Virus record (IMG/VR): IMGVR_UViG_3300045930_000367
Location: 1-27,055 of that record
DNA: 27,055 nt
Strand: one strand, 5' to 3'
From: a virus
Made by a program: the position numbers and the translations under genes. The notes below the pieces were generated by a model. That model was not told the origin of the DNA and searched no databases. It saw nothing but the letters and a program-made list of their open reading frames with translations. Positions 8,653 to 25,640 of this stretch are shown here, in pieces (position 1 is the first letter of the stretch; the number at the start of each line of letters is the position of its first letter).

Positions 8653-8902
8653 GCAAGTGGCGTGGTCCGATGGGCTCTACATCATCTGGCGCAATAGCGA
8701 CGGCGCGGTCGCCTACGACGTGACGCTCGAGGCGGCGCCGGACAGCCTTGGCCGGGACGTGGACTGCCTGACGGAGTTGGCCGCCGGGGACATCGCCATG
8801 ACCGGCCTGATCGAGGCTGAGGGATGGAGGCAATCGGACGGCTACGTCTACTTCAAGGCGGAGAACGCGGCCATCCTCTACGCGGTCGTCAAGGTGCGAT
8901 AG
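8555..8902 (+). CDS. Small tail-region structural protein (115 aa)
   Basis: The ATG at 8555 has GGAGG at 8541-8545, good spacing. After a Thr/Ser-rich start, the protein reads as beta strands: TLTDLTFTASDAVNFEQV, GLYIIWRNSDGAVAYDVTLEAAPD, and a C-terminal YVYFKAENAAILYAVVKVR. The strand pattern resembles small virion proteins that sit near the major tail protein. It overlaps the upstream zinc-finger gene by 98 bases in a different frame. Its Shine-Dalgarno is better than that of the upstream gene, so both are probably translated. Its exact role is unknown. Confidence 0.7.
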   Translation: MPRDTVTPQSRATKQTTTLTDLTFTASDAVNFEQVAWSDGLYIIWRNSDGAVAYDVTLEAAPDSLGRDVDCLTELAAGDIAMTGLIEAEGWRQSDGYVYFKAENAAILYAVVKVR

Positions 8903-8930
8903 GCGCGGAACGCGCTAGGAGGCTTCTGCT

Positions 8931-9347
8931 ATGGCCGTTCACGCGCACGGCACGCTCCTCAAGATCGGTGACGGCGGTGGTCCAGAGACGTTCACCACCA
9001 TTGAAGACGCCTTCGACATCGCCGGCCCAACCACCTCGACCGACATCATCGACGTGACCACGCACAGTTCCCCGTCCGTCTGGCGGGAGAAATTAGCCGG
9101 GCTGATCGACCCCGGCGAGATCACCTTCTCGATCTACTACACCGGCCACGCCACGCAGGATCAGTTGCGGACCGATGCGCTGGCCCGGACCTACCGCAAC
9201 TTCCAGCTCCTCTTCGCGCCGCTCGCGGTGGACGAAACCATCGCCTTTAGCGCCTACGTCACCCGCTACGAAACCGCGACGCCGAACGATGGGGCGATGC
9301 AGATCAACTGTACGCTCACCATTGGCGAGGCTTGGACATGGAGTTGA
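8931..9347 (+). CDS. Major tail protein (tail tube, 138 aa)
   Basis: A strong AGGAGG at 8919-8924 precedes the ATG. The sequence follows the tail tube pattern: HGTLLKIGDGGGPETFTTIEDAFDI, then TTSTDIIDVTTHSS..VWREKLAGLIDPGEITFSI, then ending NDGAMQINCTLTIGEAW. The 'D.Td..s..gw.e.laGl.d.G.it.s..y' segment and the closing 'tlTigg' strand are typical of siphovirus tube proteins. It forms the hexameric tube around the tape measure. It is the gene directly before the chaperone pair, as in lambda-like tails. A hairpin-locked ribosome-binding site after it probably limits downstream expression relative to this abundant protein. Confidence 0.88.
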   Translation: MAVHAHGTLLKIGDGGGPETFTTIEDAFDIAGPTTSTDIIDVTTHSSPSVWREKLAGLIDPGEITFSIYYTGHATQDQLRTDALARTYRNFQLLFAPLAVDETIAFSAYVTRYETATPNDGAMQINCTLTIGEAWTWS

Positions 9348-9394
9348 TTGTAACGCAACGTTGTGCGTAGGGCGTTCGACGCTCGGCAATGCTT

Positions 9395-9444
9395 GGTGCC
9401 TCCTAGGCGTCGGGCGTCGGGCGCTAACCAGCCAAGGAGGCACC
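9395..9444 (+). promoter_or_regulatory. Hairpin that sequesters the Shine-Dalgarno of the tail chaperone gene
   Basis: GGTGCCTCCT (9395-9404) and AGGAGGCACC (9435-9444) are perfect 10-base inverted repeats with a 30-base loop. The right arm contains the AAGGAGG used by the ATG at 9450. Formation of the stem would hide this site. A smaller hairpin (ACGCA/TGCGT, 9353-9368) lies just after the major tail stop. No U-tract follows, so a terminator is less likely. Confidence 0.6.
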
Positions 9445-9449
9445 GCGGC

Positions 9450-9980
9450 ATGGACGGCAGAGCGATCGACTTAGACCGGATGGCGGCAGACGAAGAGCGG
9501 TTGCGCTTCCCGGCGCTGCCGGAGACGGATGACGACGACGAGCTGGAGCCGTCCGGCCCCGCCGTCAAGCGCTTCAAGGACGCCGCCGAAATCCTCTCCA
9601 TTCCCGACATCGAATACCGCGATGTCTGGGTGCCGGAGTGGGACACCCACGTCAAGGTGCGCGGGCTGTCGCAGTTGGAGCGCGACCGCATCATTGACAC
9701 CTGCCGGCGCGGCAAGGGGCGGAAAGAGAAGTTCGACGCGACCGGCATGGAAGCCAAGTTCGTCATCGCCGCCGCGCTGAAACCGGAGGACAGCACGCCG
9801 ATGTTCGGGCCCGAACACCTCTACCCGCTGATGCGCAAGTCCGCCGGGGCGGTCCACCGTATCTACGTGGTGGTCGAGCAGATGTGCGGCTTCGACGCCG
9901 ATGCGGACGCCGAGGACCCACTGGCGGCGACGCGGGGAAAATCGAGTCCGACCCCGAACGGCGCTTCGCCTTTCGCCTAG
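9450..9980 (+). CDS. Tail assembly chaperone G
   Basis: 176 residues from ATG 9450, with AAGGAGG at 9434-9440. It is acidic at the N-terminus (ETDDDDELEPSG), then has KRFKDAAEILSIPDIEYRDVWVPEW and a helix with RGLSQLERDRIIDTC. The domain ends in a helix containing VHRIYVVVEQMCGFD. These features and the place between major tail protein and tape measure match the G-type tail chaperone that coats the tape measure before tube assembly. The final 12 residues (SSPTPNGASPFA) are encoded after the slippery heptamer and are low in complexity, as expected for the unshifted product. Confidence 0.82.
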   Translation: MDGRAIDLDRMAADEERLRFPALPETDDDDELEPSGPAVKRFKDAAEILSIPDIEYRDVWVPEWDTHVKVRGLSQLERDRIIDTCRRGKGRKEKFDATGMEAKFVIAAALKPEDSTPMFGPEHLYPLMRKSAGAVHRIYVVVEQMCGFDADADAEDPLAATRGKSSPTPNGASPFA

Positions 9981-10351
9981 CCGGCCATCTGCGGGCACCG
10001 TCCGTGGCGCGTATGCTGGCCGGGATGTCGGCGCGGGAGTTTCGCGAGTGGATGGCCTACGACCAGGTGGAGCCGATCGGGTCCTGGCGCGACGACGCCC
10101 GGATCGCGCAACTCTGCCTCCTAGTCGCGACGGCCTGGTCGGACCCCAAAAAGGGCAGGCGGCCGACGCTCGACGACTTCCTGCCGTGGATTCCCAAGCC
10201 GGAGACGGAGGAGCCCGACCCCGACGACCCCGAGGTGATCGCGGCGGCGCGACTGCGGGCGCGGATGTTCCGGGCCGGGATGAAAGCCAAGCGGCTTGCG
10301 CCGGGCGAACGGCCGCCGGGGTGGACGGGGCCGGTGCCGGGTGGGGAGTAG
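9450..10351 (+). CDS. Tail assembly chaperone GT (programmed -1 frameshift product, about 300 aa)
   Basis: Ribosomes slipping back one base at GGGAAAA (9935-9941) join residues 1-164 of G to a 136-residue T domain ending at TAG 10349-10351. The T domain carries LAGMSAREFREWMAYDQVEP followed by WRDDARIAQLCLLVATAW, the 'M..reF.eWma.y..eP....r.d...a.l' motif of phage T-type chaperones (DUF4035-like), and a Pro/Asp-rich linker with the 'FLPWIP' element. Nothing good for independent start exists: the T frame opens with Arg-rich codons and no Shine-Dalgarno. In lambda the same arrangement uses GGGAAAG. GT binds both tape measure and tube protein; the family rule is that a few per cent of ribosomes shift. 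Confidence 0.85.
9935..9941 (+). promoter_or_regulatory. -1 ribosomal frameshift slippery site GGGAAAA
   Basis: In the G frame the codons read CGG GGA AAA, so the heptamer is X-XXY-YYZ = G-GGA-AAA. After slipping, codons GGG-AAA are followed by ATC-GAG-TCC in the T frame. It is 40 bases before the G stop. No strong pseudoknot could be judged by eye. Confidence 0.85.
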
Positions 10352-10352
10352 G

Positions 10353-10595
10353 TCAGCGTGGCTGCGGCCGGGTCATAAACCAGAGGATCGAGAGCACGAT
10401 AAAGCCGACGAACCAGAGGCAGAAGCTGAGTCCGAACCAGATGGCGCCGGCCACGCCGACTGCCAGGGTGCAATCCTCTTCGGTGCCATCGCAACCGGCC
10501 GCACTCAGGGCCGTCAGCAGGATCGCCAGGCCGACGAGTCCGAGCGTCCATCCCCAAAGTGCCCACGTCATAAAGCGCCATCGGAGCGGATTCAC
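10353..10595 (-). CDS. Small membrane protein with two transmembrane segments (80 aa), antisense in the tail operon
   Basis: On the - strand, a GTG at 10595 has AGGAGGTG immediately upstream, better than the in-frame ATG at 10655, so the start is set there. The protein has two membrane spans: WALWGWTLGLVGLAILLTAL (residues 10-29) and AIWFGLSFCLWFVGFIVLSI (about 51-70). A short loop with two Cys (AAGCDGTEEDC) links them, which could form a disulfide. Its stop is one base from the stop of the GT gene on the other strand. Such 'moron' genes often modify the lysogen surface or exclude other phages; here that is speculation. It should be expressed from its own promoter, independent of late transcription. 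Confidence 0.72.
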   Translation of the reverse strand: MNPLRWRFMTWALWGWTLGLVGLAILLTALSAAGCDGTEEDCTLAVGVAGAIWFGLSFCLWFVGFIVLSILWFMTRPQPR

Positions 10596-10621
10596 GGGCA
10601 CCTCCTGTTGCGGCGACGCAT
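10592..10621 (-). CDS. Possible nine-residue leader peptide (MRRRNRRCP)
   Basis: The ATG lies exactly six bases after a TGCTAGGAT extended -10, so a leaderless start is plausible. The peptide has five Arg in nine residues, its AGG-AGG codons are also the Shine-Dalgarno of the membrane protein, and its TGA overlaps that gene's GTG (GTGA). The geometry suggests coupled translation. It could be coincidental in a GC-rich sequence. Confidence 0.3.
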   Translation of the reverse strand: MRRRNRRCP

Positions 10622-10627
10622 CGCGCC

Positions 10628-10636
10628 ATCCTAGCA
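10628..10636 (-). promoter_or_regulatory. Extended -10 promoter (TGCTAGGAT) for the antisense membrane gene
   Basis: Read on the - strand, TG-C-TAGGAT is an extended -10. The same GTGNTAGGAT string lies before the antisense gene ending at 19639, at the same distance from an ATG. No clear -35 was found. Confidence 0.45.
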
Positions 10637-10671
10637 CGCCGTTCGGCGCTGCCATGTTTGGGGGGTGCTAA

Positions 10672-13269
10672 ATGGGCGGGATGGCCGGCACCCTCGCCAA
10701 ACTGAACGTGATCCTGGCCCTGGATGGGCGGAACTTCTCGCGCGGGTTGGACGAGGCCGAATCGCGGATGCAGCGGTTTGGCGCGGCGGCGCGACGTTGG
10801 GGCGCGATGCTTACCGCGGCCGTCACCCTGCCGATCGTGGCCGGATTCGGCATGGCGGTCAACGCCGCGTCCGACCTGGCCGAGGCGCAGTCGGCGGTCA
10901 ATACCGTCTATGGGGAGAGTGCGTCTCTCATTGCCGGCTACAACGAGTCGGTCGCGGAGAGTCTTGGCCTGTCCCGTCAGGAGGCACTGGCATCCGCCGC
11001 GACGCTCGGCGTCTACGGGCAGGCGGCCGGGCTGGCGGGCGACGAACTGGCGACGTTTACGAACCAGAATCTCCAGGCTGCGGCCGATCTCGCCAGTTTC
11101 TACAACGTCGCGGGTGGAGCGCCGGAAGTCCTCAACGCGATCCAGGGTGCCCTTATGGGCGAGTACGACGCCTTGCAGCGCATGGGCGTCCTGATCGATG
11201 AGGACATCGTCAATCAGTACGCATGGCAGCACGGCATCGCTGCAACCGGCGCTGAGCTCACCGAGCAGCAAAAGGTCCTGGCCCGCCACGGCGTCATCAT
11301 GGACGGGCTCGGCGCGGCGCAGGGCGACTTCGCCCGGACCCAGGGCGGGCTCGCCAACCAGTCACGCATCCTCCGGGCGCGGTTCAAGGACCTGGCGGCG
11401 ACGGTTGGGAGTGTCCTGCTCCCGGTGGCGCTCAAGTTGGCGAATGCGGTCGGCGATCTGTTTACCTGGCTGGAGGGGTTGTCGCCGGCCGCACTCAAAA
11501 TCGCGGTGATCTTCGGTGCCGTGGTGGCGGCGGTTGGCCCGCTCCTGCTGATCCTTGGGGCGCTGTCATCCGCTCTTGGTGGAGTTGCTGGCCTGGCTGC
11601 GACATTCGGCACCACCTGGGGCGCGATTGGTGCCGGCGCGCTCTCACTCCTTGGGCCACTTGCGCTGGTGGCGGCGGCCATTGCGGCGCTCTTCCTGGCG
11701 TGGCGGACGAATTTCCTGGGGATTCAGGACATCACCGCTGACGTGTTCGGTGGCATCGTGGACACCATCGGCCCGCCGATCCTGGCGGCGATTGAGCGCA
11801 TCCGGACGTTCGTTGCCGAGGTGACCGGATTCTATCAAGCGCTCCGTGACCAGGACTTGAGTCCGGTCGAGGCGGCGTTTACCGCGGTCGGCAATGCGCT
11901 CGACCGCCTGCTTGGGACCGATGTGTCCGGCTTCTTCACCGATCTGGGCGCGGGGCTCCAGACGGTCATCATTATGGTGTCGCTGACGGCGGGACTCATC
12001 AAGACCGAGTTATTGCCGGCAATCTATGCCTTTGCGATGGTGGGGGAAATCGGTCTTGGACTCGTGCTGGATCAATTGCGTATTCTGGCATGGTTGGTTG
12101 GGATAACGTTGCCGCCACTGATTCAAGGGCTCGGGCTCGGGTTTGTCCTGGTTTGGGCGCACGTCGCCGACGACATCAGGGCAGTTATCATGCTGTTAGA
12201 AATCCTGCTTCCCGAGGCAATTCGGGGCGTGACCGATCTTATCTATGCCGCCTACATCGCCTTCCGGCTCTGGTATGTGGGGATGAATATGGTTGGGGCG
12301 AGCATCCGCACGGGGTTCACCCTCGCCATCTTCCTGATTCGTGGGACGATCATGGCGATCGATGAGCTCATCGAAAAGCTGCCGAAAATCGATCTCCCCG
12401 AATGGATGGACCCTGGGAACATCAATTTGGGTGCGCTCAATCCGATGAATCTACTGGACGCCGACCCGGCGTCTGCTGCTGGGGGGCCAAGCGGGCAAGA
12501 CCTGACCGTGGCCGGAGTGGCGCCGTTCGAGAACATGAAGGATGGCATCCTGAGTGTCATGGAAGACATTGCCGCCGGGGTGGCTAATGCCTGGTTGGGC
12601 ATGAAGAATGATGCAATAAATATTGTCGGACAACTCAACGCCGAGGTGTATTTCACGTTTACTGATCTCTGGCAACCGATGAAGACCAACGCCGAGCAGA
12701 TTCGCGCGACGGTGGCGAACGAGTGGGTCGGCCTAAAGAACGACCTTGTGACGATCACCGGGCAGATTCGCGACCGGGTGATCGGGGAGTTTCAACCGAT
12801 CCGGGGCGACCTCTACACCCTGGCCCACGACAACATCGCACCGATGCTCGTCACCGAGTGGGACTTGATGGAAACGGACGCCGCGGCCGGCGGCTGGTCG
12901 ATCGGCAACGCGCTTGGCGCCGGGCTCTACAACGGGATCATCGCCTGGATCAATCCGATTGTTGTCGCGGCGTCCAGTGCGGTACGGGGCGCGATTACGG
13001 CCGCCCGTCTGGAAGCACAGGTCACGAGCCCGTCCCGCAAGACCATGTACATCGGGGAGATGATGGGCAAGGGGCTGGTGCTCGGCTTCGAGCGCGGCGT
13101 GGGCGGCGGCTCCCTCTTCGGGTCGGCCGGGTTCGCCTTCGCCGGCCGGCAGGGCGGTAGCACGACCGCCACCTTCAACAACTATGGGGCCGTTAGCGTC
13201 GGTCAGGGTGGTGGGGGCGACGACTGGAGCGCCATGCGTGGCTGGCGGTACGGCGAGACGCGAGCCTGA
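10672..13269 (+). CDS. Tail tape measure protein (865 aa)
   Basis: The N-terminus (LAKLNVILALDGRNFSRGLDEAESRMQRFGAAARRWG) followed by a long helical region with NLQAAADLASFYN and VLIDEDIVNQYAWQHG matches the phage tail tape measure domain (TP901-type), which includes the 'LG.qsg..a..e.a.f..nl..laaDlasf.n' motif. Hydrophobic segments lie at about residues 273-343 and 432-493, as usual for proteins thought to cross the host membrane. At about 1.5 angstrom per residue (family rule) the tail would be near 130 nm. ATG 10672 or the ATG at 10681 may be the start; both lack a strong Shine-Dalgarno except a GGGGGG tract at 10660-10665. It follows the chaperone pair, interrupted only by the antisense membrane gene. 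Confidence 0.93.
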   Translation: MGGMAGTLAKLNVILALDGRNFSRGLDEAESRMQRFGAAARRWGAMLTAAVTLPIVAGFGMAVNAASDLAEAQSAVNTVYGESASLIAGYNESVAESLGLSRQEALASAATLGVYGQAAGLAGDELATFTNQNLQAAADLASFYNVAGGAPEVLNAIQGALMGEYDALQRMGVLIDEDIVNQYAWQHGIAATGAELTEQQKVLARHGVIMDGLGAAQGDFARTQGGLANQSRILRARFKDLAATVGSVLLPVALKLANAVGDLFTWLEGLSPAALKIAVIFGAVVAAVGPLLLILGALSSALGGVAGLAATFGTTWGAIGAGALSLLGPLALVAAAIAALFLAWRTNFLGIQDITADVFGGIVDTIGPPILAAIERIRTFVAEVTGFYQALRDQDLSPVEAAFTAVGNALDRLLGTDVSGFFTDLGAGLQTVIIMVSLTAGLIKTELLPAIYAFAMVGEIGLGLVLDQLRILAWLVGITLPPLIQGLGLGFVLVWAHVADDIRAVIMLLEILLPEAIRGVTDLIYAAYIAFRLWYVGMNMVGASIRTGFTLAIFLIRGTIMAIDELIEKLPKIDLPEWMDPGNINLGALNPMNLLDADPASAAGGPSGQDLTVAGVAPFENMKDGILSVMEDIAAGVANAWLGMKNDAINIVGQLNAEVYFTFTDLWQPMKTNAEQIRATVANEWVGLKNDLVTITGQIRDRVIGEFQPIRGDLYTLAHDNIAPMLVTEWDLMETDAAAGGWSIGNALGAGLYNGIIAWINPIVVAASSAVRGAITAARLEAQVTSPSRKTMYIGEMMGKGLVLGFERGVGGGSLFGSAGFAFAGRQGGSTTATFNNYGAVSVGQGGGGDDWSAMRGWRYGETRA

Positions 13270-13276
13270 GGGGGTG

Positions 13277-13762
13277 CTAGTCGAGATGGCGCCAGTTTCG
13301 CCGATGCACAATAGCAAAGACGGTGGACACCGTGACGCCGAATTGCGCGGCAAAAATCTTGGCGTCGGTTGGTGTCACGTAGTTGCTCCGGATGAATCGG
13401 ACATCTGTCTCGGTCAGCTTGGCCCTCGGGTGTCGTTCGCCGGGGCTCCCATGGAGGATGGCGCGACCCTTCGCGACTGCATCTGCCACGTTGTCGGCGT
13501 TGGTGCCGACGAACAGGTGCACGGGATTGCAGCAGGGCGGATTGTCGCAACGATGCAAGACGCACTGATTCTCGGGCCAGTATCCGATGGCGAGCGCCAT
13601 TGCGTAGCGATGCGTCAGGACCGATCCCGAACCGGCCCAAAATCGTCCATATCCCAAAGGCGAAAAACAGCCCGTCCACGGCCAGCACGCATCGGGGCCG
13701 CCGGAGCGGTCCACCTTCGACCAGAAACGCGCAATCACGTTAGGGGTAAACTTGGGCTGCAT
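13277..13762 (-). CDS. HNH endonuclease with C-terminal helix-turn-helix (161 aa), antisense
   Basis: A homing-type nuclease. Residues 1-20 (QPKFTPNVIARFWSKVDRSG) lead to a Cys/Trp segment (DACWPWTGCFSPLGYGRF). The HNH_3 core is LHRCDNPPCCNPVHLFVGTNADNVADA, with His, paired Cys and the NxxH/NxxDN signature. The C-terminus (KLTETDVRFIRS ... DAKIFAAQFGVTVSTVFAIVHRRNW) is a DNA-binding HTH/NUMOD-like region. ATG 13762 is chosen because GGAGGT lies six bases upstream on that strand; the longer frame has no such site. It ends seven bases from the tape measure stop, facing it. It is not in an intron: both flanking genes are intact. It should be a selfish gene, transcribed against the late operon. 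Confidence 0.88.
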   Translation of the reverse strand: MQPKFTPNVIARFWSKVDRSGGPDACWPWTGCFSPLGYGRFWAGSGSVLTHRYAMALAIGYWPENQCVLHRCDNPPCCNPVHLFVGTNADNVADAVAKGRAILHGSPGERHPRAKLTETDVRFIRSNYVTPTDAKIFAAQFGVTVSTVFAIVHRRNWRHLD

Positions 13763-13838
13763 CTCGGGACCTCCATCCTGAGTGCCATACCCCCGGCTGG
13801 TGACACAGCGCGGGGGCTTTTGCTTGGATTGGTAAGGG

Positions 13839-13867
13839 ATTATACCATAGAGGAGGTGCCATATTAA
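13839..13867 (-). promoter_or_regulatory. Promoter of antisense HNH gene 2
   Basis: On the - strand the elements read TTAATA (13867-13862), a 17-base spacer and TATAAT (13844-13839) with an extended TG (TGGTATAAT). This is the best sigma-70-type -10 in the window. It overlaps the Shine-Dalgarno and start region of the + strand distal tail gene, so the two could interfere. Confidence 0.65.
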
Positions 13868-16316
13868 CCTCACCCACTTTGCCGGTACCGCGTTTAGCAC
13901 CTTCGGGCTCACCGCCGTCCTCGACCCACGGGCGCCGGGGGAGCCGACGCAACCGCTCTGGCTGGCCCGCGCCAACGCAACGCCGGTCCTGGCGGGATTG
14001 GCCCGCCCGGGGCGCACCATCCCGGTGCTGTTTCACACGACGCAGGGGACCGCCCGGACGGTGGACGAGGATCGCATCGTTCGGCTGCTGCGCCTGCTCG
14101 ACCCGACCAACCCGGAACCGCGCGAGCTCCGCGGCACGCTGACGCTCGATGACAACGCGGACGGCACGGCAGAGACGGCGCACACCGTCGCGGTGGACGT
14201 GGTCGTGGGGGCGCGCAATTGGGAGGAGGGCGGGCCGTACCGTGTCGTCTTCCACGCCGCCGAAGAGGTCTGGCGAGAGACGACGAACACGACGGACGGG
14301 CCGAACTCTCTGACGGCGGACGGCAGTTTTACCGTGGACAACGACGGCACGGCCCCGGCCCATCCGCAAATCCGCGTGACCTGGACGGCGCAGCGCTCCG
14401 CAGACGAGACGACGCAACTCGGGTGGAAGTACCGCGTGGTCGTGCCGGTCACGAACAACGGGACGCGGGATTGGAACAACGAGCTCATCCCGATCGCGCT
14501 CGGGGACACGACCGCCCTGACGACGGCGAAGGCGCTTGCCAGCGGGAACGACGTCCGGGTCCGTCTGGACGGCCGGGAGTTGCCGCGGCAGTTGCAGAAC
14601 TGGGATACCGCGTTTGGCTCCATGATCGTGCCCTTGACGCTCGGTGCCGGCGAGACGGCGAACCTGGAAATCGTCTACGGCAACCCGCAAGCCGGCGACC
14701 CGCGCGACGAGGATTTGACGCTCGACAAGTACGCGCATTCCGGCCTGCGTGGCTACGCCGCTTGGGACCTGGGGGCGGATACCGGCACGGCGACGGCGGG
14801 CGGCGCCTCGACCCTGACCGACTCCGGCAAGAGTTGGGTAACGAACCGGTGGGCGGGGGCAAGCATCCGCCTGGTCGGGGGCACCAGCGCCAACGAGACG
14901 CGGCGCGTCCTGAGCAACACGGATACCGTCATCACCGTCGATCGCGCCTGGCAGACGGCGCCGGACGCCACGTCCGTCTACGTGATCTGGATGTCGGGGA
15001 TCGCCTGTTGGGGCGGCGTGCGATCGGCCGGGGGCGCCGGGCCCACGATGACTGACGGATCGGCCAGTTTCCCGGCCGGCGGGCTGGTCGGCGGCGTGGT
15101 CGTGATTCACAACGGGACCGGCGCCGGCGCCACGCTCTACACCATCACCGCCAACACCGCGACCGTGCTGACGGTCACGCCCGATTTCCCGACGCTCGGC
15201 GCGTCGTCGGAGTACCGCGTGACCAAGTGGGGGTACGCCTCCTGGTACGTCGATCAGGTGGAGCATAGCGAACGGTGGCGCGGGCGCTTCCGGCTCAACC
15301 GGCATCAGTCGCGCCCGTCCCGCGTCTGGTTCCGCAGCGACGGCATCCCCGGCGCCTGGGATCGCGTCGTCACCCTGCGCAACGGCGACGACTACCGGCA
15401 ACTGCGCTGGACCGCCTTCGACGCCGGCGGCGGTGATAACGACTATATCGGTATGCTCGATGTCCGGCGCAAAAAGGGCGGGGATGATACGTTCCAGGAA
15501 GAGGGCTTTGCGGACGGGCTGGCCTACTACACGGCGTTGGGCATCATCGGCGTCCGCTTCGACTACGACTATTTGAACGAGGCCGGCGTGGGCAAAATCG
15601 TTTTACTCGCCAAGGCCCCCGGCGGCGAGGCCTGGGAGGTCGCGCACGAGACGACGACGACGCAGGCGACGCTGACCGCCCTTTCCCTGACCTACGTGGA
15701 CCTGACGCCGCTAGAGGGAGACTACCCGATCCACATCGCGCAATCGGTGTGGCCGGCGGACGAGGTGGAGATTCCGGACACGGCGGACGGCAACGACGAG
15801 GCCGATGTCTACGATGATGAAACGTTCGAGGTCTACCTCGATCCGTCTGACTGCCTGATCGACAGCACTGCGCCGTCCGCGTTCGAGGTGGATTGGGCGA
15901 CCGACGAAGCGGACGTGTACGACCTGCAAGCCACGATTGCCTACGGTGCTTCGGTCGCGGCGGCACTCGATCTGATCCGCATCGGCCGGCACGCCACGCT
16001 CGATGACTCCGGCGAGGGCGGCGGCTGGTTCCATCTGCCGTCTGGCGACGTGCTGGTGATCGATTGCGACACCGGCGAAATCTTCACCTACACCGGGGCG
16101 ATCGACGCCACGTCCTACACGAAAGAGCACGCCGCCTACGCCGCCGTCGTCTACGAGCGGATCACCGATCCGGACAATGACGGAAGCCTGATCGCCGTGC
16201 CGTCGTCGGACTGGATGCCGCTTGCCGGCGAGGCGACGACGACCGTGCAGGTGGCCGAGACGGGGATGGGGACGCTGTCGGTATACATAGTTTATCAGGA
16301 GGGCTACATTGTTTAG
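13863..16316 (+). CDS. Distal tail protein-like protein with large carbohydrate-binding-like insertions (817 aa)
   Basis: The frame continues upstream of the first in-frame TTG (13998) with good coding sequence (NLTHFAGTAFSTFGLTAVLD). A perfect GAGGAGG at 13850-13856 points to ATT 13863 as the start; an in-frame TAG at 13848 excludes anything further upstream. Residues 1-165 match siphovirus distal tail proteins (TIPVLFHT..., GGPYRVVFHAAEEVWRE, then FTVDNDGTAPAHPQI). Residues about 187-280 (YRVVVPVTNNGTRDWNNELI ... LEIVYGN) resemble DUF2341. Two similar 65-75-residue modules follow near residues 305 and 386, each ending in a 'T.iTV...W.t.p...S.Y.i' pattern. The rest (460-817) is beta-rich. 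Typical distal tail proteins are about 250-300 aa, so this is an evolved version that could bind host glycans. Confidence 0.75.
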   Translation: MNLTHFAGTAFSTFGLTAVLDPRAPGEPTQPLWLARANATPVLAGLARPGRTIPVLFHTTQGTARTVDEDRIVRLLRLLDPTNPEPRELRGTLTLDDNADGTAETAHTVAVDVVVGARNWEEGGPYRVVFHAAEEVWRETTNTTDGPNSLTADGSFTVDNDGTAPAHPQIRVTWTAQRSADETTQLGWKYRVVVPVTNNGTRDWNNELIPIALGDTTALTTAKALASGNDVRVRLDGRELPRQLQNWDTAFGSMIVPLTLGAGETANLEIVYGNPQAGDPRDEDLTLDKYAHSGLRGYAAWDLGADTGTATAGGASTLTDSGKSWVTNRWAGASIRLVGGTSANETRRVLSNTDTVITVDRAWQTAPDATSVYVIWMSGIACWGGVRSAGGAGPTMTDGSASFPAGGLVGGVVVIHNGTGAGATLYTITANTATVLTVTPDFPTLGASSEYRVTKWGYASWYVDQVEHSERWRGRFRLNRHQSRPSRVWFRSDGIPGAWDRVVTLRNGDDYRQLRWTAFDAGGGDNDYIGMLDVRRKKGGDDTFQEEGFADGLAYYTALGIIGVRFDYDYLNEAGVGKIVLLAKAPGGEAWEVAHETTTTQATLTALSLTYVDLTPLEGDYPIHIAQSVWPADEVEIPDTADGNDEADVYDDETFEVYLDPSDCLIDSTAPSAFEVDWATDEADVYDLQATIAYGASVAAALDLIRIGRHATLDDSGEGGGWFHLPSGDVLVIDCDTGEIFTYTGAIDATSYTKEHAAYAAVVYERITDPDNDGSLIAVPSSDWMPLAGEATTTVQVAETGMGTLSVYIVYQEGYIV

Positions 16317-16317
16317 C

Positions 16318-16866
16318 CTACTCCACGTTCGCCCAACTGACGCCTCGCCAAACGGCATAGACGGTTGTTGCCCCGACCCCGAGGCGGCGAGCGATGCGGT
16401 AGGCGCTCTCAGTCCCCCTGAGTGCCCGAATCTCGCGCACAAGGGCGGGCGTGAGTTTGGCCTGCGATCCGCGCTGGGTGTTCTCCGCGTTTGTTACCGG
16501 CTCGACGTGGTCAGGATTCACGCAGGATCGCTGCCGGCAGAGGTGGTCAAGTTGCATGCCGCCAGGGACCGGCCCCCGGAGTCGTTCGTAAACGATACGA
16601 TGGGCATACAAGCCACCCACGGTCCCATATCCGGTATCGGTATTGACGGCCCGCTGCCAAATCCAACAGGGGGTTTCGTGGCCCCGATCTTCCTCGATCC
16701 ATTCGACGGGGGAGCGGCCCAATCGGGCACGGTGCCCACGCAGAAACCGCTTAGGCTGCCCCTTGACATGACCGAATTCGGGCCAGTCGCACTTAGCGAT
16801 CGACGTCGTGCCACCGCACCCACACTGACACAGACCGAGGGGGATGGTGGTATCTTCCGGGGGCAT
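16318..16866 (-). CDS. HNH endonuclease with zinc site and C-terminal helix-turn-helix (182 aa), antisense
   Basis: ATG 16866 is set by AAGGAGGT seven bases upstream on that strand; the long upstream extension is a shadow of the sense genes. The N-terminus holds CQCGCGGTTSIAKC, a likely zinc knuckle. Then come TPCWIWQRAVNTDTGYGTV and the HNH_3 core MQLDHLCRQRSCVNPDHVEP with VTNAENTQRG. The C-terminus (KLTPALVREIRALR ... YRIARRLGVGATTVYAVWRG) is an HTH homologous to that of the other antisense HNH protein. Its stop is one base from the stop of the distal tail gene. It shares domain order, orientation and promoter type with that protein, so the two probably are related homing genes at two sites in the same operon. 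Confidence 0.88.
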   Translation of the reverse strand: MPPEDTTIPLGLCQCGCGGTTSIAKCDWPEFGHVKGQPKRFLRGHRARLGRSPVEWIEEDRGHETPCWIWQRAVNTDTGYGTVGGLYAHRIVYERLRGPVPGGMQLDHLCRQRSCVNPDHVEPVTNAENTQRGSQAKLTPALVREIRALRGTESAYRIARRLGVGATTVYAVWRGVSWANVE

Positions 16867-19638: not shown

Positions 19639-19929
19639 TTAGCGGTCCATGCCGAGCAGGCGCAGGTCCGCTTCCTCAAGCGTTTCGAGCAGCATCGTTA
19701 TCCCGAGCGAATCGTCACACAGCATTCGGTTCGCCCACATCGCCGCGATTACCGCCCCGATGCGCGCCAGGGAGGCGCGGAGGGCGTGCTCGGCTTCGGC
19801 CGCTGCATAGGCCCTGGGCGGGATCGCCGGCACCATATAGGTCCCGCGTCCTGTCGGCACGCCGGGGGGATCGCTGAGGTCGATCGGGCCGCGCGCGCGG
19901 AGTGCCCTGGTCAAGAGGTCATCGTCCAT
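19639..19929 (-). CDS. Antisense protein of unknown function (96 aa)
   Basis: On the - strand, ATG 19929 opens a frame with convincing composition: DDDLLTRALRARGPIDLSDP, then AYAAAEAEHALRASLARIGAVIAAMWANRML and a C-terminal MLLETLEEADLRLLGMD helix. The competing + strand frame (19630-19959) is rich in Arg, His and Cys and looks like a shadow. The gene has no Shine-Dalgarno. It has TGGTAGGAT exactly six bases before the ATG, so it could be leaderless. Its divergent partner starts at 19956. It ends five bases from the stop of the coiled-coil gene. Confidence 0.55.
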   Translation of the reverse strand: MDDDLLTRALRARGPIDLSDPPGVPTGRGTYMVPAIPPRAYAAAEAEHALRASLARIGAVIAAMWANRMLCDDSLGITMLLETLEEADLRLLGMDR

Positions 19930-19935
19930 GCCCCA

Positions 19936-19944
19936 ATCCTACCA
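19936..19944 (-). promoter_or_regulatory. Extended -10 (TGGTAGGAT) with leaderless spacing
   Basis: Read on the - strand: TGG-TAGGAT, TGGGGC (six bases), then ATG 19929. A transcript starting at the usual distance from the -10 would begin at the ATG itself. Confidence 0.5.
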
Positions 19945-19955
19945 CGGAGCGCGCC

Positions 19956-20348
19956 ATGACCGACCGTTGGCGACCGCTCTTCCTCTGGGCGCTGGCGGTG
20001 GCCGCGGTCTGGTGCGCCCTCCATTTGCTCGGCGTGGTCGGCTCGCGCTGGGGCCTGTACGCCCTGGTCGCCGGTGGCGTCGTCTACGCCAACATCGTCG
20101 TGGTCATGCTGGTGGGAACGCGGCGGTGGACGGCGCGTGGCCTGGGGCTGATGTGCGCCCTGCTGGTGGACGCCTACCTGTTCGGGCGGTTGCTCGGAGC
20201 GACGGCACTGGGCTGGGTCGATCCGCCGGGTAGGCTCGAGCGCGAGCTCAGCTGGGCGCTCTTCATCGTCGGGGGTGTGCTCCTGACCTGGGGCATCCTC
20301 GATTGGTGGCGGGAGCGCTGGGATGAATCGGCACGGCACGATCTGTGA
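19956..20348 (+). CDS. Four-span membrane protein (130 aa)
   Basis: ATG 19956 has CGGAG nine bases upstream. Four hydrophobic spans are visible: LFLWALAVAAVWCALHLLGVV, WGLYALVAGGVVYANIVVVML, GLGLMCALLVDAYLFGRLLGA and WALFIVGGVLLTWGILDWW. Short charged loops (GTRRWTARG, DPPGRLERE) separate them. It lies in the lysis region, upstream of the endolysin. It could be a holin or a host-surface membrane protein. No family motif is recognised. Confidence 0.65.
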   Translation: MTDRWRPLFLWALAVAAVWCALHLLGVVGSRWGLYALVAGGVVYANIVVVMLVGTRRWTARGLGLMCALLVDAYLFGRLLGATALGWVDPPGRLERELSWALFIVGGVLLTWGILDWWRERWDESARHDL

Positions 20349-20361
20349 CCGGAGGGTCACG

Positions 20362-20370
20362 TGATAAACT
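20362..20370 (+). promoter_or_regulatory. Extended -10 (TGATAAACT) with leaderless spacing
   Basis: TGA-TAAACT is followed by CGGCAC (six bases) and ATG 20377. There is no Shine-Dalgarno at that start, so leaderless initiation is likely if this promoter is used. Confidence 0.5.
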
Positions 20371-20376
20371 CGGCAC

Positions 20377-20856
20377 ATGACGCGGACGCTGTCGGTGGCT
20401 CTCTCGCTGATGCTGGCGGCGATCGTCCTGCTTGGAGCGGTGGCGCTGATCGGGTTGTCTGCGCCGCCTATCACCTCGGACGCGACGGCGCCGTCACCGT
20501 CGATCGTTTCGACTGCCAATCTGATGCCGGTTGGGACCTCCACGCCGGACCAGTTGTCCACCATCGAGGCGTTGTTATGGCCCACGCTGACGCCCTCGCC
20601 GGTGCCGACGCGGCGACCGACGCCGACGTTCGTGCCGTGCGGGCCGGAACCGCCGGACGGGGCGATCTGCTGGCACCCGGCCGTACCGAGCCCCACGCGG
20701 ACACCCAGCCCGCCCCTGACTCCCACGCCGTTGCCGGACTGTTCGTCCGTCTCGGACGACTACAGCGGCTTCTGTCGGCATTCCTCGACAAGCACGCCGA
20801 CCCGCGCGCCGGCCGGGTTGACGGGTGGGGACGCCGGAGGGTCGATCGGTGACTAG
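20377..20856 (+). CDS. Secreted or membrane-anchored Pro/Thr-rich protein (159 aa)
   Basis: The first 30 residues (RTLSVALSLMLAAIVLLGAVALIGL) form a signal peptide or N-terminal anchor without a lipobox Cys. The remainder is low-complexity Pro/Thr/Ser (TPSPVPTRRPTPTFVPCG, SPTRTPSPPLTPTPLPDCS) with two Cys pairs (C...C near residues 88-97 and 122-132). Such linkers are typical of cell-surface proteins in Chloroflexota and related groups. The gene lies just before the endolysin and overlaps it by eight bases. It may be a surface protein expressed in the lysogen, or an outer lysis partner. Neither is proven. Confidence 0.65.
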   Translation: MTRTLSVALSLMLAAIVLLGAVALIGLSAPPITSDATAPSPSIVSTANLMPVGTSTPDQLSTIEALLWPTLTPSPVPTRRPTPTFVPCGPEPPDGAICWHPAVPSPTRTPSPPLTPTPLPDCSSVSDDYSGFCRHSSTSTPTRAPAGLTGGDAGGSIGD

Positions 20857-22312
20857 CCTGACGCCGGAGAGCCCCTGGCGTACCTCGGGGGATACCACGC
20901 TAGCCGCCTTCGCCGCCGAACTGGCCGGCTCCCCCGTCGCCGCCGAGGCGGACGTGCTCTGCGACCTGGCCGATCCCTACGGCAGGTTGTACCTCGCGCA
21001 TTCGAAGATTGAGAACCAACACGATACGGTCGGTATCCTGATCGACCCTGGAATGCATAATAACTTGGCTTTGAGGCCACGCGGCTACCCCGAAGAGTTG
21101 GGCACGCGCAACGGGTTCGCGGTGTTCCCGCGCTACCAGGACTGCCTGACGGCGTGGCGGCGGCGGCTTTCCGACGTGCGCCTCTGCTACCTCGACGCCG
21201 TGACGATGCTCGAATACAGCACTTGCTACAACCCCGCCAGCGACACCCACCCCGTGACCGGCGTCGTCAACGATCCCGTCCGCTACTGCAACCGCCTGTT
21301 GACGACGATCAACCGCCTGCCCGAGGAAGGAGCACCGCCGATGGCCGAACCGCAAAATATCGTCGTCGTCGCCGGCCACCGCTCCACCGGCGATCCTGGC
21401 AACCCGAGCGAGAAGGAGCGCACCGACGACCTGGCCCGCGCCTACCGCGACGCCCTCAGAGCAGCCGGGCACGAAGTCTGGTGGCTGCAAGAGAACGACG
21501 GCGACGCCGACCCGGACGACACGGTCGGCGGGCTCGACACCGTGGGCCGGCGCACCCTCGCCCTCTGCGAGTCGGTCGGCGCGACGCTGATGCTCGACCT
21601 GCACTTCGAGGGGCACGGCAACACCAGCGTGCGGGGCTGCTTCGCCATCGTGCCGGACGTGACCGGCCTGACGACGGCCGTGCCGGGCGGGGCGCCGCCG
21701 CACGACACCTGGGCGAACAACCCGCTGGACCAGAAGGTCGGCCGCGCCCTGACCGAGGCGATCCGCTCGCAGACCGGCATCCCGCTCCGCACGGGCATCC
21801 GCGAGCCGGGGCTGATGGACGAGGGCGAGACGGGCGTCGGGGCGCAGGGATTCCGGCTGGCGATGTTCGCCTACACCGTGCCGCGCCAGCCCGAGATGGT
21901 GCGCCTCGTGGTCGAGCACGGCGCCCTGACCAACCCCCAGGACCGGGCGATCATCGACGCGCCGGGCTTCTACCAGAAGGTCGGACAGGCGGCGGTGATG
22001 GCGGTCAATACCGTCTTCGGGGCGCCGGAGGTGCCGGACGAACCGGACCCGCCCACGGACGAACTCGCCTACCCGCCGGGCTGGGACGCCCTAGTGGCGG
22101 CGGAGGTCTGGGGCACGGCCTACTCGCCCGATTGGGATTTCAACCCGGCCGGCGTCGTCAGCCGCATCTACATCGACGAGCGGGTCTGTAGCCGGCTGAT
22201 CTACCGGTTGCGGCAACCGGGCGGGCGCGACCTGTTCGTCTTTACCAGCGGGCACACGATCGGCCGGCTGGCCGACACCGAGAGCTACCGCGTCCTCGCC
22301 AAACCGAAGTAG
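20849..22312 (+). CDS. Endolysin: glucosaminidase/lysozyme-like domain plus N-acetylmuramoyl-L-alanine amidase (487 aa)
   Basis: GTG 20849 is preferred (GGAGGG at 20836-20841); GTG 20825 is possible. Residues 25-150 resemble a lysozyme/glucosaminidase fold with a candidate acid E55 in AHSKIENQHD and a NPASDTHPVTG-type loop. Residues 165-400 match Amidase_3: zinc ligands H177 (AGHRS), E190 (SEKER), H252 (LHFEGH) and catalytic E356 (VEHG). The C-terminal 80 residues (from ELAYPPGW) are probably a wall-binding module. It would cut glycan and peptide bonds of peptidoglycan during lysis. An in-frame internal start at 21341 could yield a shorter amidase-only protein. Confidence 0.85.
   Translation: MTSLTPESPWRTSGDTTLAAFAAELAGSPVAAEADVLCDLADPYGRLYLAHSKIENQHDTVGILIDPGMHNNLALRPRGYPEELGTRNGFAVFPRYQDCLTAWRRRLSDVRLCYLDAVTMLEYSTCYNPASDTHPVTGVVNDPVRYCNRLLTTINRLPEEGAPPMAEPQNIVVVAGHRSTGDPGNPSEKERTDDLARAYRDALRAAGHEVWWLQENDGDADPDDTVGGLDTVGRRTLALCESVGATLMLDLHFEGHGNTSVRGCFAIVPDVTGLTTAVPGGAPPHDTWANNPLDQKVGRALTEAIRSQTGIPLRTGIREPGLMDEGETGVGAQGFRLAMFAYTVPRQPEMVRLVVEHGALTNPQDRAIIDAPGFYQKVGQAAVMAVNTVFGAPEVPDEPDPPTDELAYPPGWDALVAAEVWGTAYSPDWDFNPAGVVSRIYIDERVCSRLIYRLRQPGGRDLFVFTSGHTIGRLADTESYRVLAKPK
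21326..21343 (+). promoter_or_regulatory. Internal ribosome-binding site and ATG at the endolysin domain boundary
   Basis: AAGGAG (21327-21332) lies eight bases before an in-frame ATG at 21341, exactly where the lysozyme-like domain ends and the amidase begins (APP-MAEPQN). Translation from here would give a 323-residue amidase with the C-terminal module. Confidence 0.45.
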
Positions 22313-22321
22313 GAGGCTCCC

Positions 22322-22456
22322 ATGCCAACCGCGCGAGAGATCCTGTATGCGTTTTTCATTCTCGTCGTCATCGTCATCGTCGGCTGGTTTTTGCTGGAGG
22401 TGATCGACCGCCTCGACAACGACCCGGCCGCGATCGGCTGGGAGTGGATGGACTGA
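22322..22456 (+). CDS. 44-aa single-span membrane protein
   Basis: GGAGG at 22312-22316 precedes ATG 22322. The product has one span (ILYAFFILVVIVIVGWFLL, residues 6-24) and an acidic C-terminus (VIDRLDNDPAAIGWEWMD). It directly follows the endolysin, where small holin or spanin-like proteins occur. It has no second segment, so a class III holin or a helper is possible. Confidence 0.6.
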   Translation: MPTAREILYAFFILVVIVIVGWFLLEVIDRLDNDPAAIGWEWMD

Positions 22457-22457
22457 C

Positions 22458-22688
22458 ATGCCGACCTTTCGCCTCGACATCGCCCACTCGTTCGTCTGCG
22501 ACTCGCAGGACCAGGCCATCGCCTTCGACGAGGCCGTGACGCTGGCGATTGAGCAAGCGATGGCCGATCACGGCGTGCGGATCAAGGTCGGCGGGCAGTT
22601 CGCGTTGGCGTCTTGCGAGGGCGACGGGTGCCTCGGCATGGTCCTCTGCTCCAGCGAGGGCGACCCGGCACCGGAGATCGAATCATGA
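22458..22688 (+). CDS. Hypothetical protein of 76 aa in the lysis region
   Basis: It starts one base after the previous stop. It has FRLDIAHSFVCDSQDQAIAFDEAVTLAIEQAM and an AsnC-like alternating pattern, then IKVGGQFALASCEGDGCLGMVLC with three Cys. Soluble, no membrane span. It overlaps the holin-like gene by ATGA. No function is recognised. Confidence 0.6.
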   Translation: MPTFRLDIAHSFVCDSQDQAIAFDEAVTLAIEQAMADHGVRIKVGGQFALASCEGDGCLGMVLCSSEGDPAPEIES

Positions 22689-22993
22689 TCGCCCAGACCG
22701 AGCCCGTCCGCCTCGTCGCCATCCTCACCGCCTTCGTCACCGCCGGCATCGGCGTCGCCGTCGCATTCGGGTTGGACGTGACATCAGACCAGCGCAACGC
22801 GATCCTCGCCGCGATCCCGCCGGTAGCGGTGGCGATTGCGGCCGGCGGGGAGTGGGCGCGGGCCAGAGTCACGCCGGTCCCGCGGGCGGACAATGCCGTG
22901 GCCGAGGCCGAACACGCCGGCTATATCCGCGGCATCACGGACACGCGGCGCGAACTCGCCGGGGTGCCGACGCCGATTGCGCGCGAGGGGTAA
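22685..22993 (+). CDS. Holin-like protein with two membrane spans (102 aa)
   Basis: An ATGA overlap couples it to the upstream gene. Residues 8-30 (VRLVAILTAFVTAGIGVAVAF) and 43-60 (AAIPPVAVAIAAGGEWA) are hydrophobic, separated by DVTSDQRNAIL. This 'TEPV.L.Ai..A.v..gia.a.fgld.t..Q..ai.a....' layout is that of many actinophage-type holins. The C-terminus is soluble and charged. It lies at the end of the lysis cassette, which supports a role in membrane permeabilisation. Confidence 0.7.
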   Translation: MIAQTEPVRLVAILTAFVTAGIGVAVAFGLDVTSDQRNAILAAIPPVAVAIAAGGEWARARVTPVPRADNAVAEAEHAGYIRGITDTRRELAGVPTPIAREG

Positions 22994-23036
22994 ACGACAA
23001 CGGCCGGTCCGTTCGCCGAAAATGGGTCATACTCGT

Positions 23037-23108
23037 ACCGGCGTAGTGTAGTGGTCCGACACGCCGTCTTGCGGGACGGAGACTCCGGTTCGAATCCGGC
23101 CGCTTGGC
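23037..23108 (+). tRNA. tRNA-like element, irregular; possible attachment site
   Basis: The cloverleaf is partly visible: D-stem GTGT/ACAC with AGTGGTCCG loop, anticodon stem CCGTC/GACGG, T-arm CCGG-TTCGAAT-CCGG. However, the anticodon loop has six bases (TTGCGG) and the acceptor stem pairs poorly (ACCGGCG with CGCTTGG). An isotype cannot be given. It may be a decayed tRNA, an unusual phage tRNA, or part of an attP that mimics a tRNA next to the integrase. Confidence 0.4.
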
Positions 23109-23111
23109 AAC

Positions 23112-23141
23112 GAACCTCCCGGGCATCCGTCCGGGGGGTTC
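23112..23141 (+). terminator. Strong 11-bp hairpin after the lysis genes
   Basis: GAACCTCCCGG pairs with CCGGGGGGTTC (one G-U) around an eight-base loop. There is no U-tract. It lies between the converging late and integrase transcripts. A second small hairpin (CGGCC/GGCCG) is at 23242-23257. Confidence 0.4.
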
Positions 23142-23168
23142 GCCCATCTCGGCGTCGGTCGTTTCCTC

Positions 23169-23369
23169 GGTCACGCCTGGTCACCGCGCCCGTCCAAACC
23201 GTCCATACTGACCCCCAACCGACCGCACGACCCGCGCCGATCGGCCCGTTTCGGCCGGCCGGGGATGCCCGCCGACAAGCGTGGCTAGGTGCCGTCCATC
23301 ACAGATTCCCCGTATCCATGCGGTTTTCTCGCCCGTTCGGCGACGCGTGGTCACCGCCTCGGTCACCGC
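23169..23369. repeat. GGTCACCGC repeats in two close pairs
   Basis: Copies start at 23169 (GGTCACG), 23179, 23349 and 23361 (GGTCACCGC). Spacing within pairs is 10 and 12 bases, about one helical turn. A further GGTCACG lies at 24531, before the integrase start. They might be arm-type sites for integrase or excisionase. Confidence 0.35.
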
Positions 23370-24519
23370 TCCCCGCAATCAGGCCCATCATGGCCGTCAC
23401 GCCGTCCGCCTGCGCGCCCGGCAGCAGGTGCGTGTAGATGTCCAGGGTGATCGAAATCTGGGCGTGGCCGAGCCGGTCGGAGACGACCTTGACCGGCACG
23501 CCGGCGGCGAGCATCAGGCTGGCGTGCGTGTGCCGGAGCTGGTGCGGCGTCAGGCGCGGCAACCCGTGGTCCGCGTGCAACCGCGCGAGCAGCGCCACCG
23601 CGCCGTCGCGACCCCGCACCCCGCCGGTCCGCCGGCGCGGGAGCACGAGGCCCTCGTCGCGCCACCGCTCGCCCGCCGCGGACCGCCACTCGGCCACCCG
23701 GCGGAACTGCGCCCGCAGTTCCGCCACCGTCTCGGCGTCGAGCGCCACCGCCCGGCCGCGGCCGCGCTTGGTGCCGTCGCGGGCGTAGGCGCCCTGCCCC
23801 TTGGGCCGGGTCACCGTGCGGCGCACGGACAGCTCCGACCGCTCGAAGGAGACGTCCTCCCAGCGCAGGGCCAGGGCCTCGGCGATCCTGAGCCCGCCGC
23901 AGAGCATCAGGCGCAGGAGCACGGCGTCGTCGCCGTCCACGGCGGCCAGCGCGTCTCGCGCCTCCTGGGGGCTCCAGACGGCCACGTCGCCGCGGGTGCG
24001 GTCGGTGCGCGGGGCGCGGACGCCGGCGAGCGGGGAACGGTCGATGAGCCGCCAGGCGACGGCCTGGGCGAGCGCGCCGGAGAGGACGGCGCGGTGGACC
24101 TCCAGCGACGTCGGCGCCACGCCCCGGGCCAGGGCGGCGCGCTGGTAGTCGACCAGGTCCAGCGGCGCCAGGTCGCGCAGGCGCAGGTGGCCCAACGCGG
24201 GCTTGAGGTGGCGGTCGACCACCGTCGCGTAGTTGCCGAGCGTCTTGGGCGCGAGGCGGTCGGCGGTCTCGACCAGCCAGCGGTCGAGGAAGGCGCCGAC
24301 CGTGAGCGCGGACGCCGCGGCGGTGCGGGCGGCGCCGCGCTCCCGCAACCCCCGGCGGAACGCCTCGGCCGCCTCCTCGGTGGCGAAGGTCTCGCTCTTC
24401 CAGCGGCGCTCTCCGGCCTCGTCGCGGTAGCTGTAGCGGACGCGGTAGGCGGTGCCGCGGGCGCCGGTGCGGCGCTGGACGCCGCGGACGGTCTTCTCGC
24501 GGGCGGGCTTGGCGGGCAC
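23299..24519 (-). CDS. int: Tyrosine-type phage integrase (406 aa)
   Basis: The GTG at 24519 has GGGAGG five bases upstream. An N-terminal arm-binding-like region (TAYRVRYSYRDEAGERRWKS), a core-binding domain with LTVGAFLDRWLVETADRLAP at 72-91, and a catalytic domain from about 180 are visible. Catalytic residues can be placed: R211 in GGLRIAEAL, K251, H326 and R329 in HQLRH, H352 in LGHAQ, and Y362 in IYTH. All are present, so the enzyme should be active. It would recombine attP and attB. It points toward the lysis genes, downstream of the repressor on the same strand, and is separated from it by a + strand gene. Confidence 0.93.
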   Translation of the reverse strand: MPAKPAREKTVRGVQRRTGARGTAYRVRYSYRDEAGERRWKSETFATEEAAEAFRRGLRERGAARTAAASALTVGAFLDRWLVETADRLAPKTLGNYATVVDRHLKPALGHLRLRDLAPLDLVDYQRAALARGVAPTSLEVHRAVLSGALAQAVAWRLIDRSPLAGVRAPRTDRTRGDVAVWSPQEARDALAAVDGDDAVLLRLMLCGGLRIAEALALRWEDVSFERSELSVRRTVTRPKGQGAYARDGTKRGRGRAVALDAETVAELRAQFRRVAEWRSAAGERWRDEGLVLPRRRTGGVRGRDGAVALLARLHADHGLPRLTPHQLRHTHASLMLAAGVPVKVVSDRLGHAQISITLDIYTHLLPGAQADGVTAMMGLIAGSGDRGGDHASPNGRENRMDTGNL

Positions 24520-24534
24520 TGCTGCCTCCCGGTC

Positions 24535-24579
24535 ACGTTCGCCGAAACCGTTGAGATTCGCGAACGTCGGCGCTATCCT
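24535..24579 (+). promoter_or_regulatory. Promoter TTGAGA-17-TATCCT and overlapping inverted repeat
   Basis: TTGAGA (24551-24556) and TATCCT (24574-24579) are 17 bases apart and point to the gene at 24630. ACGTTCGC (24535-24542) and GCGAACGT (24560-24567) form an 8-bp inverted repeat across it, a candidate operator that could also act on integrase expression. Confidence 0.5.
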
Positions 24580-24629
24580 CCGAATGTAGTACGGATGTTC
24601 TTGTTCCGATAGCGGCGAGGGGTGGTGAC

Positions 24630-24932
24630 ATGGCGTCTCGGGACGGGTCGGAGCCGGTCTCCGGGCGGGGCACGGCGGCGATCGCGCTGACGATGGCGGA
24701 CGGGAGTCGGGTGGTCTGCCTCAATCGGATCGGGCTGGACGTGGGGTCGGCGGCGGCGGGCGTGACGGTCGGGCCGCTCGATGGTGGCGGTGAGCTGGTG
24801 CCGGCGGAGGGGCGCGAGGCGAAGCTGCTGCTCTACCGGGCGATGGTGGCGATGCGCCGGCAGCACTACCGCAACTCCCCGCCCAACCCGGCGCCGAAGC
24901 CGGCGTCGGCGAAGCGGCGGCGGAACCGCTAG
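24630..24932 (+). CDS. Hypothetical protein (100 aa) between integrase and repressor
   Basis: The ATG follows GAGGGG at 24617-24622. The sequence begins with SGRGTAAIALTMADGSRVVCLNRIGLDVG, then AKLLLYRAMVAMRRQHYRN and a basic C-terminus (PAPKPASAKRRRNR). The basic tail may bind nucleic acid. It is divergent from the integrase and converges on the repressor, whose TAG shares CTAG with its own stop. No family is recognised. Its own promoter suggests expression in the lysogen or early in infection. Confidence 0.6.
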   Translation: MASRDGSEPVSGRGTAAIALTMADGSRVVCLNRIGLDVGSAAAGVTVGPLDGGGELVPAEGREAKLLLYRAMVAMRRQHYRNSPPNPAPKPASAKRRRNR

Positions 24933-25315
24933 CCCTCCCCTCCCGTCTGCCGCGCCGCCTTCCGTTCCAACCGCAGTTCCTCGAGGAAGAAATCCGCCTG
25001 GTTCTCGATCGCCTTGACCCAGAGCGGCCGGCTCCTCAACCGCCGCACCTTGCCGGCGATCCGCTCCACCGGGTCGTCCGGGTCGATGGGCTCGGTGGCG
25101 GGCAGGTGGCCGGCGAGTTGCATCAGCATCGTCACGTCGGCGTTGAGGACATCGGCGATGCGGTCGATGGATTCGGGGTCGGGGCGACGTCTTCCACGAA
25201 GCCAGTTGCTCACCATTCCGGGAGAGAAGCCAGACTCCCTGGCGAAGTCCGCTGCTCGCCACTCCCGCCGATCCAACTCGTCTTGTAGCCACATTGAAAA
25301 CTTCCCGACTTCCAC
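24929..25315 (-). CDS. XRE-family repressor (CI-like, 128 aa)
   Basis: A helix-turn-helix is visible near residues 8-55: MWLQDELDRREWRAADFARE, SGFSPGMVSNWLRGRRRP and SIDRIADVLNADVTMLMQLAG. The C-terminal half (DPVERIAGKVRRL ... WVKAIENQADFFLEELRLER) is helical without a peptidase motif, so it is not a LexA-type self-cleaving repressor. GTG 25315 is preferred; ATG 25294 is an alternative, and longer starts overlap the divergent gene. A TACAGT seven bases upstream of the GTG could be a -10, near-leaderless. It faces the Cro-like gene, forming a genetic switch. Downstream in the same direction lies the integrase. Confidence 0.78.
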   Translation of the reverse strand: MEVGKFSMWLQDELDRREWRAADFARESGFSPGMVSNWLRGRRRPDPESIDRIADVLNADVTMLMQLAGHLPATEPIDPDDPVERIAGKVRRLRSRPLWVKAIENQADFFLEELRLERKAARQTGGEG

Positions 25316-25329
25316 GGGCGCCACTGTAG

Positions 25330-25364
25330 TTGACGAATGCTTCAGATGGGTATAGAATCGCTTC
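25330..25364 (+). promoter_or_regulatory. Cro-like gene promoter (TTGACG-17-TAGAAT), leaderless, with two GAA...TTC operators
   Basis: TTGACG (25330-25335), 17 bases, TAGAAT (25353-25358), CGCTTC, then ATG 25365: a complete promoter with the start at the ATG. GAATGCTTC (25335-25343) and GAATCGCTTC (25355-25364) are similar, imperfect palindromes 20 bases apart, one next to the -35 and one at the start, as expected for repressor operators. Confidence 0.65.
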
Positions 25365-25640
25365 ATGGAGAAACACCTACGGTTCTCGGGCGAGAAGCTC
25401 GAAGCAATCCTCTCCGCGCAGGGGCGCCGCCGCGACTGGCTGGCTGCGCAGGCTGGCGTGGACAAGTCGCTCATCACGCATCTGATCGCTGGCCGAAGGA
25501 CGGTCGCTCACGAGGTGGCCGAACGAATCAGCCGGGCGCTTCAGGTCCCCTTTTTTGTGGCCTTCGAGTTCCCCAATGAAGCGAAATCGGATTCATCGGA
25601 AGCCAATCAAGAGCCCGACCTCATCGAGGCCGCCTCATGA
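25365..25640 (+). CDS. XRE-family Cro-like regulator (91 aa)
   Basis: Residues 8-60 (FSGEKLEAILSAQGRRRDWL, AAQAGVDKSLITHLIAGRRT, VAHEVAERISRALQVPFFVAFEF) form a helix-turn-helix of the XRE/lambda-repressor type. The C-terminus (NEAKSDSSEANQEPDLIEAAS) is acidic and disordered. There is no Shine-Dalgarno; the promoter places the transcript start at the ATG. It is divergent from the repressor and opens the early operon (overlapping the next gene by ATGA). It likely opposes the repressor. Which of the two acts as lytic repressor cannot be proven by sequence. Confidence 0.75.
   Translation: MEKHLRFSGEKLEAILSAQGRRRDWLAAQAGVDKSLITHLIAGRRTVAHEVAERISRALQVPFFVAFEFPNEAKSDSSEANQEPDLIEAAS

Follow-up and report, generated by a model that had tools for sequence, protein, structure and literature searches.

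In phage PY54, the cI and cro mRNAs are both leaderless, and their 5' ends have been mapped (PMC4488713). Leaderless transcription has been proven for paaR2 of CP-933P, with lambda cI (from PRM) cited alongside it (PMC8630535). Among bacterial genes, a start codon with a TANNNT motif about 12 bp upstream and no Shine-Dalgarno (SD) sequence marks the leaderless, TA-led type (Zheng et al. 2011; PMC3160421), which was found in 4 of 12 Chloroflexi genomes with a mean of 4.7% and is commoner in Actinobacteria (PMC3160421). Leaderless micro-ORFs in an RTGA-coupled arrangement have been described from mycobacteria (PMC4633059).

The window, i.e., the whole stretch of 27,055 nucleotides analyzed here, belongs to a 27 kb IMG/VR virus record, has a GC content of 68%, and carries its virion genes on the + strand. 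Four TANNNT hexamers lie exactly six bases before an ATG (N6), at 10621, 19929, 20377, and 25365, and no further TANNNT-N6-ATG string occurs on either strand. The -10 extensions given in a preliminary description were confirmed as TGC-TAGGAT, TGG-TAGGAT, and TGA-TAAACT, as was the TTGACG-17-TAGAAT promoter (Table 1). All four ATGs had been proposed there as leaderless starts. Leaderless initiation is the best reading at 25365 and 20377 and plausible at 19929, given the published signal, the N6 enrichment in Chloroflexota, and the recurrence in G227, while ATG 10621 did not hold up as a gene start.

We assign a probability of about 0.7 to the reading in which 25365, 20377, and probably 19929 are leaderless starts following a host-wide habit, and in which the promoter at 10621 makes a leadered mRNA. 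The -10 hexamer (TANNNT) of a housekeeping-sigma promoter would be placed so that transcription begins on the A of the ATG (25365, 20377, and probably 19929), and the leader-free mRNA would be translated by recognition of the 5'-terminal AUG instead of SD pairing. Such starts would reflect a host lineage that uses leaderless genes genome-wide, most likely high-GC Chloroflexota, and would coexist with the SD-led genes that form most of this phage.

Table 1. Features of the window discussed in the text, with promoter elements as predicted.
Feature	Position	Strand	Remarks
HNH_3 (homing-type) endonuclease gene	3028-3576	+	free-standing among virion genes
Small membrane protein, 80 aa	10353-10595	-	GTG start with AGGAGG (-13.5 kcal/mol); predicted leadered
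Nine-codon micro-ORF MRRRNRRCP	10592-10621	-	stop after nine codons
Candidate extended -10 TGCTAGGAT	10628-10636	-	
HNH_3 (homing-type) endonuclease gene	13277-13762	-	free-standing among virion genes
HNH_3 (homing-type) endonuclease gene	16318-16866	-	free-standing among virion genes
96-aa protein antisense to late operon	19639-19929	-	GC3 0.86
Candidate extended -10 TGGTAGGAT	19936-19944	-	AGGA alternatively a weak SD
Perfect inverted repeat GTGACC-GGAG-GGTCAC	20345-20360	+	between stop codon and -10 of 20377 gene
Candidate extended -10 TGATAAACT before ATG 20377	20362-20370	+	
Signal-peptide / Thr-Pro-rich protein, 159 aa	20377-20856	+	GC3 0.87 in frame, codon score; without SD
Tyrosine integrase	23299-24519	-	strong SD start
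Divergent XRE regulator, 121 aa from ATG 25294	24929-25294	-	HTH_3 9e-9
Sigma70-like promoter TTGACG-17-TAGAAT of rightward XRE gene	25330-25358	+	10/12 consensus matches
XRE/HTH regulator, 91 aa	25365-25640	+	HTH_31 / HTH_3 just below Pfam cut-off; PHROG transcriptional regulator

At most of the phage's other starts, the anti-SD pairs with about -6 kcal/mol or more strongly; many starts lie between -7 and -13 kcal/mol, and many of these others reach -9 to -13 kcal/mol. Pairing at 20377 and 25365 is weak and misplaced (-2.7 and -3.8 kcal/mol, respectively). The claim that none of the four ATGs has an SD stands for these two, which carry no usable one, but it is doubtful for 19929 (GGTAGGA, -5.5 kcal/mol) and 10621 (AGGATGG, -6.4 kcal/mol), where the spacing is usable. 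Because AGGA sits inside the proposed -10, both hexamers could be weak SDs, with AGGA 7 nt before the ATG and transcription beginning farther upstream. We consider this somewhat unlikely, as many SDs in the phage are stronger and of the GGAGG class, a TGN extension precedes both hexamers, and no gene lies behind ATG 10621. As in published leaderless genes, a TANNNT precedes the start codon by about 12 bp at 20377, 25365, and 19929, and an SD is lacking at 20377 and 25365, with 19929 borderline. RNA folding near the starts showed nothing beyond that of shuffled sequences.

The shared geometry could also have arisen by chance among many ATGs, in which case the genes would be translated without an SD, from transcripts that are longer or coupled. 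The raw count is unremarkable in this respect, with four TANNNT-N6-ATG strings against 1.66 in dinucleotide shuffles (5 of 100 reached four) and 1.53 expected under a first-order Markov model (P 0.07), a weak excess over any ATG, and one of the four ATGs (10621) opens nine codons only. However, the excess is far larger at gene starts or with an extended -10. TANNNT was found at most 50 nt upstream in 6 of 34 curated gene starts, lying at N6 in three of them (19929, 20377, and 25365) and at 28, 32, and 36 in the others. Three occurrences at N6 compare with a mean of 0.06 per other spacing (Poisson P 3.7e-5), which is a strong enrichment at these starts. The string TGNTANNNT-N6-ATG, a pattern chosen post hoc, was observed three times against 0.08 expected (P 8e-5), and TGNTANNNT itself totals 13 copies in the window, three of them exactly six bases before an ATG. 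As the geometry also matches the genome-wide signal of the likely host phylum, chance is a quite improbable explanation.

The nearest genome relatives of the integrase are Chloroflexota (32-40% identity), which makes this phylum the likely host, set against best matches of the tape measure to Microbacterium phages. A high-GC Chloroflexota host is likely but unproven. TANNNT spacings were counted over whole genomes in 121 Chloroflexota, with low background taken as a sign of high GC. In many low-background genomes, N6 was well above N11, with 102 vs 19 in G032, 131 vs 28 in G108, 119 vs 25 in G100, and 151 vs 38 in G084. In a hand-picked subset, the 19 genomes with the lowest background had a median N6 enrichment of 2.8-fold, and some high-GC Chloroflexota (G348) had no N6 peak in their spacing profile. 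Among the HTH_3 genes of 12 genomes picked for having an N6 peak, TANNNT stood at N6 in 4 of 46 candidate starts, compared to about 0.35 per other spacing.

A degenerate tRNA-like sequence (23037-23108, +) is located just past the 3' end of the integrase gene. Its T arm is intact, a proper acceptor stem and anticodon loop are missing, and it is possibly an attachment-site remnant. It gave no match that could point to a host in 400 genomes at the strict threshold of E 1e-8.

The rightward XRE gene at 25365 is best read as predicted leaderless from its sequence. Its ATG starts at the seventh base past the -10 hexamer, a TAG at 25353 closes this frame to any start farther upstream, and GC3 as well as codon scores favor 25365-25640 over the ORF at 25337-25579. 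The surrounding layout is that of a lambda/PY54-type switch, with divergent HTH regulators, a short intergenic region, and the integrase on one side, and no clear operator repeat was seen in the intergenic sequence between the two XRE genes. The leftward XRE gene has an alternative start at GTG 25315 (128 aa), preceded by TACAGT-N7-GTG, from which it would possibly be leaderless too, as in PY54. The gene at 25365 heads a rightward operon that points away from the integrase and the other regulator, and by analogy with lambda this side would be the early or Cro-like one.

A search with both regulators led to a prophage-like region in G227 (L127/L128; C1:417388-420717), where int (-), XRE (-), a divergent XRE (+), and an HTH_17-like gene follow the same order as in the window at 26-35% identity. 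A single start was found for the left XRE gene, a GTG with TGCTAGACT-N6 ahead of it; the right gene has TTGACT-N17-CATTGT-N9-ATG, and both lack an SD. The spacing counts of G227 (480 kb) peak at N6 and N7 with 35 and 28, compared to 9.1. Promoters close to the start codon are thus shared by the window and one other switch, which is independent and weakly similar. Besides the one in G227, no divergent XRE pair was found in the integrase neighborhoods of 20 other elements. Viral relatives of the XRE genes, the amidase, and the integrase were sought for site conservation, and none was useful. The only tape-measure match found, the separate viral contig L008 (7108 bases), is 100% identical to 8610-15717 of the window and offers no variation. 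The searches yielded no close relatives that vary in sequence.

The gene at 20377 is likewise predicted to be leaderless, which is the best reading of its start. The inverted repeat upstream contains GGAGG, 21 nt from the ATG, and may be a putative operator or hairpin, or may hide the GGAGG. GTG 20361 was considered as the start of this gene and rejected; it has a good SD (-10.0), but its frame is a different one, in which third-position GC is lower and the codon score is worse. The gene for this Thr/Pro-rich exported protein is immediately followed by one for an amidase-domain protein (20825-22312).

The start at 19929 is a plausible leaderless one, predicted with less certainty than 25365 and 20377. 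GC3 and a positive codon score favor its reading frame over the opposing + ORF, whose codon score is negative, and its product had no match in Pfam or PHROG.

ATG 10621 had been described as the start of an antisense gene, but it opens only nine codons before a stop, and the 80-codon gene begins at the SD-led GTG 10595. If TAGGAT at 10633-10628 is a -10, this same promoter type would provide the mRNA of the GTG 10595 gene with a 26-nt leader. The 5'-terminal ATG 10621 may also be translated into a GTGA-coupled nine-codon peptide, as the TGA of the micro-ORF overlaps the next start as GTGA at 10595-10592; this junction is a single instance and may be a chance match. To our knowledge, the architecture of a leaderless micro-ORF coupled through GTGA is known only from mycobacteria. 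A broader picture, in which temperate phages of high-GC Chloroflexota place both switch arms on leaderless mRNAs and add a GTGA-coupled leaderless nine-codon micro-ORF (10621/10595), is doubtful.

Among the virion genes, a weak match in Pfam points to an XkdN-like tail assembly chaperone (9450-10351, +). Next comes, still ahead of the tape measure, an ORF that overlaps it in a different frame. A chaperone and overlapping ORF upstream of the tape measure are the usual location of a programmed frameshift.

Strong SD starts were found at the three HNH genes and the integrase, and the two antisense HNH_3 genes have near-consensus promoters of their own (13867-13839 and 16975-16946) and GGAGG starts. 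The preliminary description further proposed that a leaderless start identifies a gene as expressed in the lysogen. In its favor, the sites belong to genes that are not part of the virion set, and two of them are on the opposite strand like morons. The proposal is nevertheless highly improbable, as the XRE gene at 25365 heads an operon on the presumed early side, the stand-alone HNH genes as well as the integrase have SD-led starts, and both cI and cro of PY54 are leaderless (PMC4488713), so that leaderlessness does not separate lysogenic from lytic genes.

The start-site type and the phage precedents are already known, and the setting, probably Chloroflexota, is new. No new mechanism is revealed; a known start-site signal is extended to phage genes from a lineage that has been little studied and probably belongs to Chloroflexota. 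Gene callers that rely on the SD can misplace starts in this phage, and the prediction for the lysis-lysogeny switch is easy to test.

Compared to the mycobacterial micro-ORFs (PMC4633059), 10621/10595 likewise has an RTG-initiated short ORF and a GTGA overlap with the next gene, but its expression and its 5'-terminal ATG are only putative and the match can be due to chance. The window sites lie in a phage, unlike the TA-led genes (PMC3160421), whose published share in Chloroflexi is small, and they have in common with them the first T of TANNNT 12 bp before the start codon and the lack of an SD. As for lambda cI and PaaR2 of CP-933P (PMC8630535), a leaderless phage regulator in a divergent switch is predicted for 25365, which lies on the Cro-like side, whereas those two belong to the repressor side. 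PY54 (PMC4488713) differs in phage family and host, and its 5' ends are mapped whereas those of the window are predicted; the window shares with it the divergent HTH regulators of a temperate phage and the start-codon-proximal promoters.
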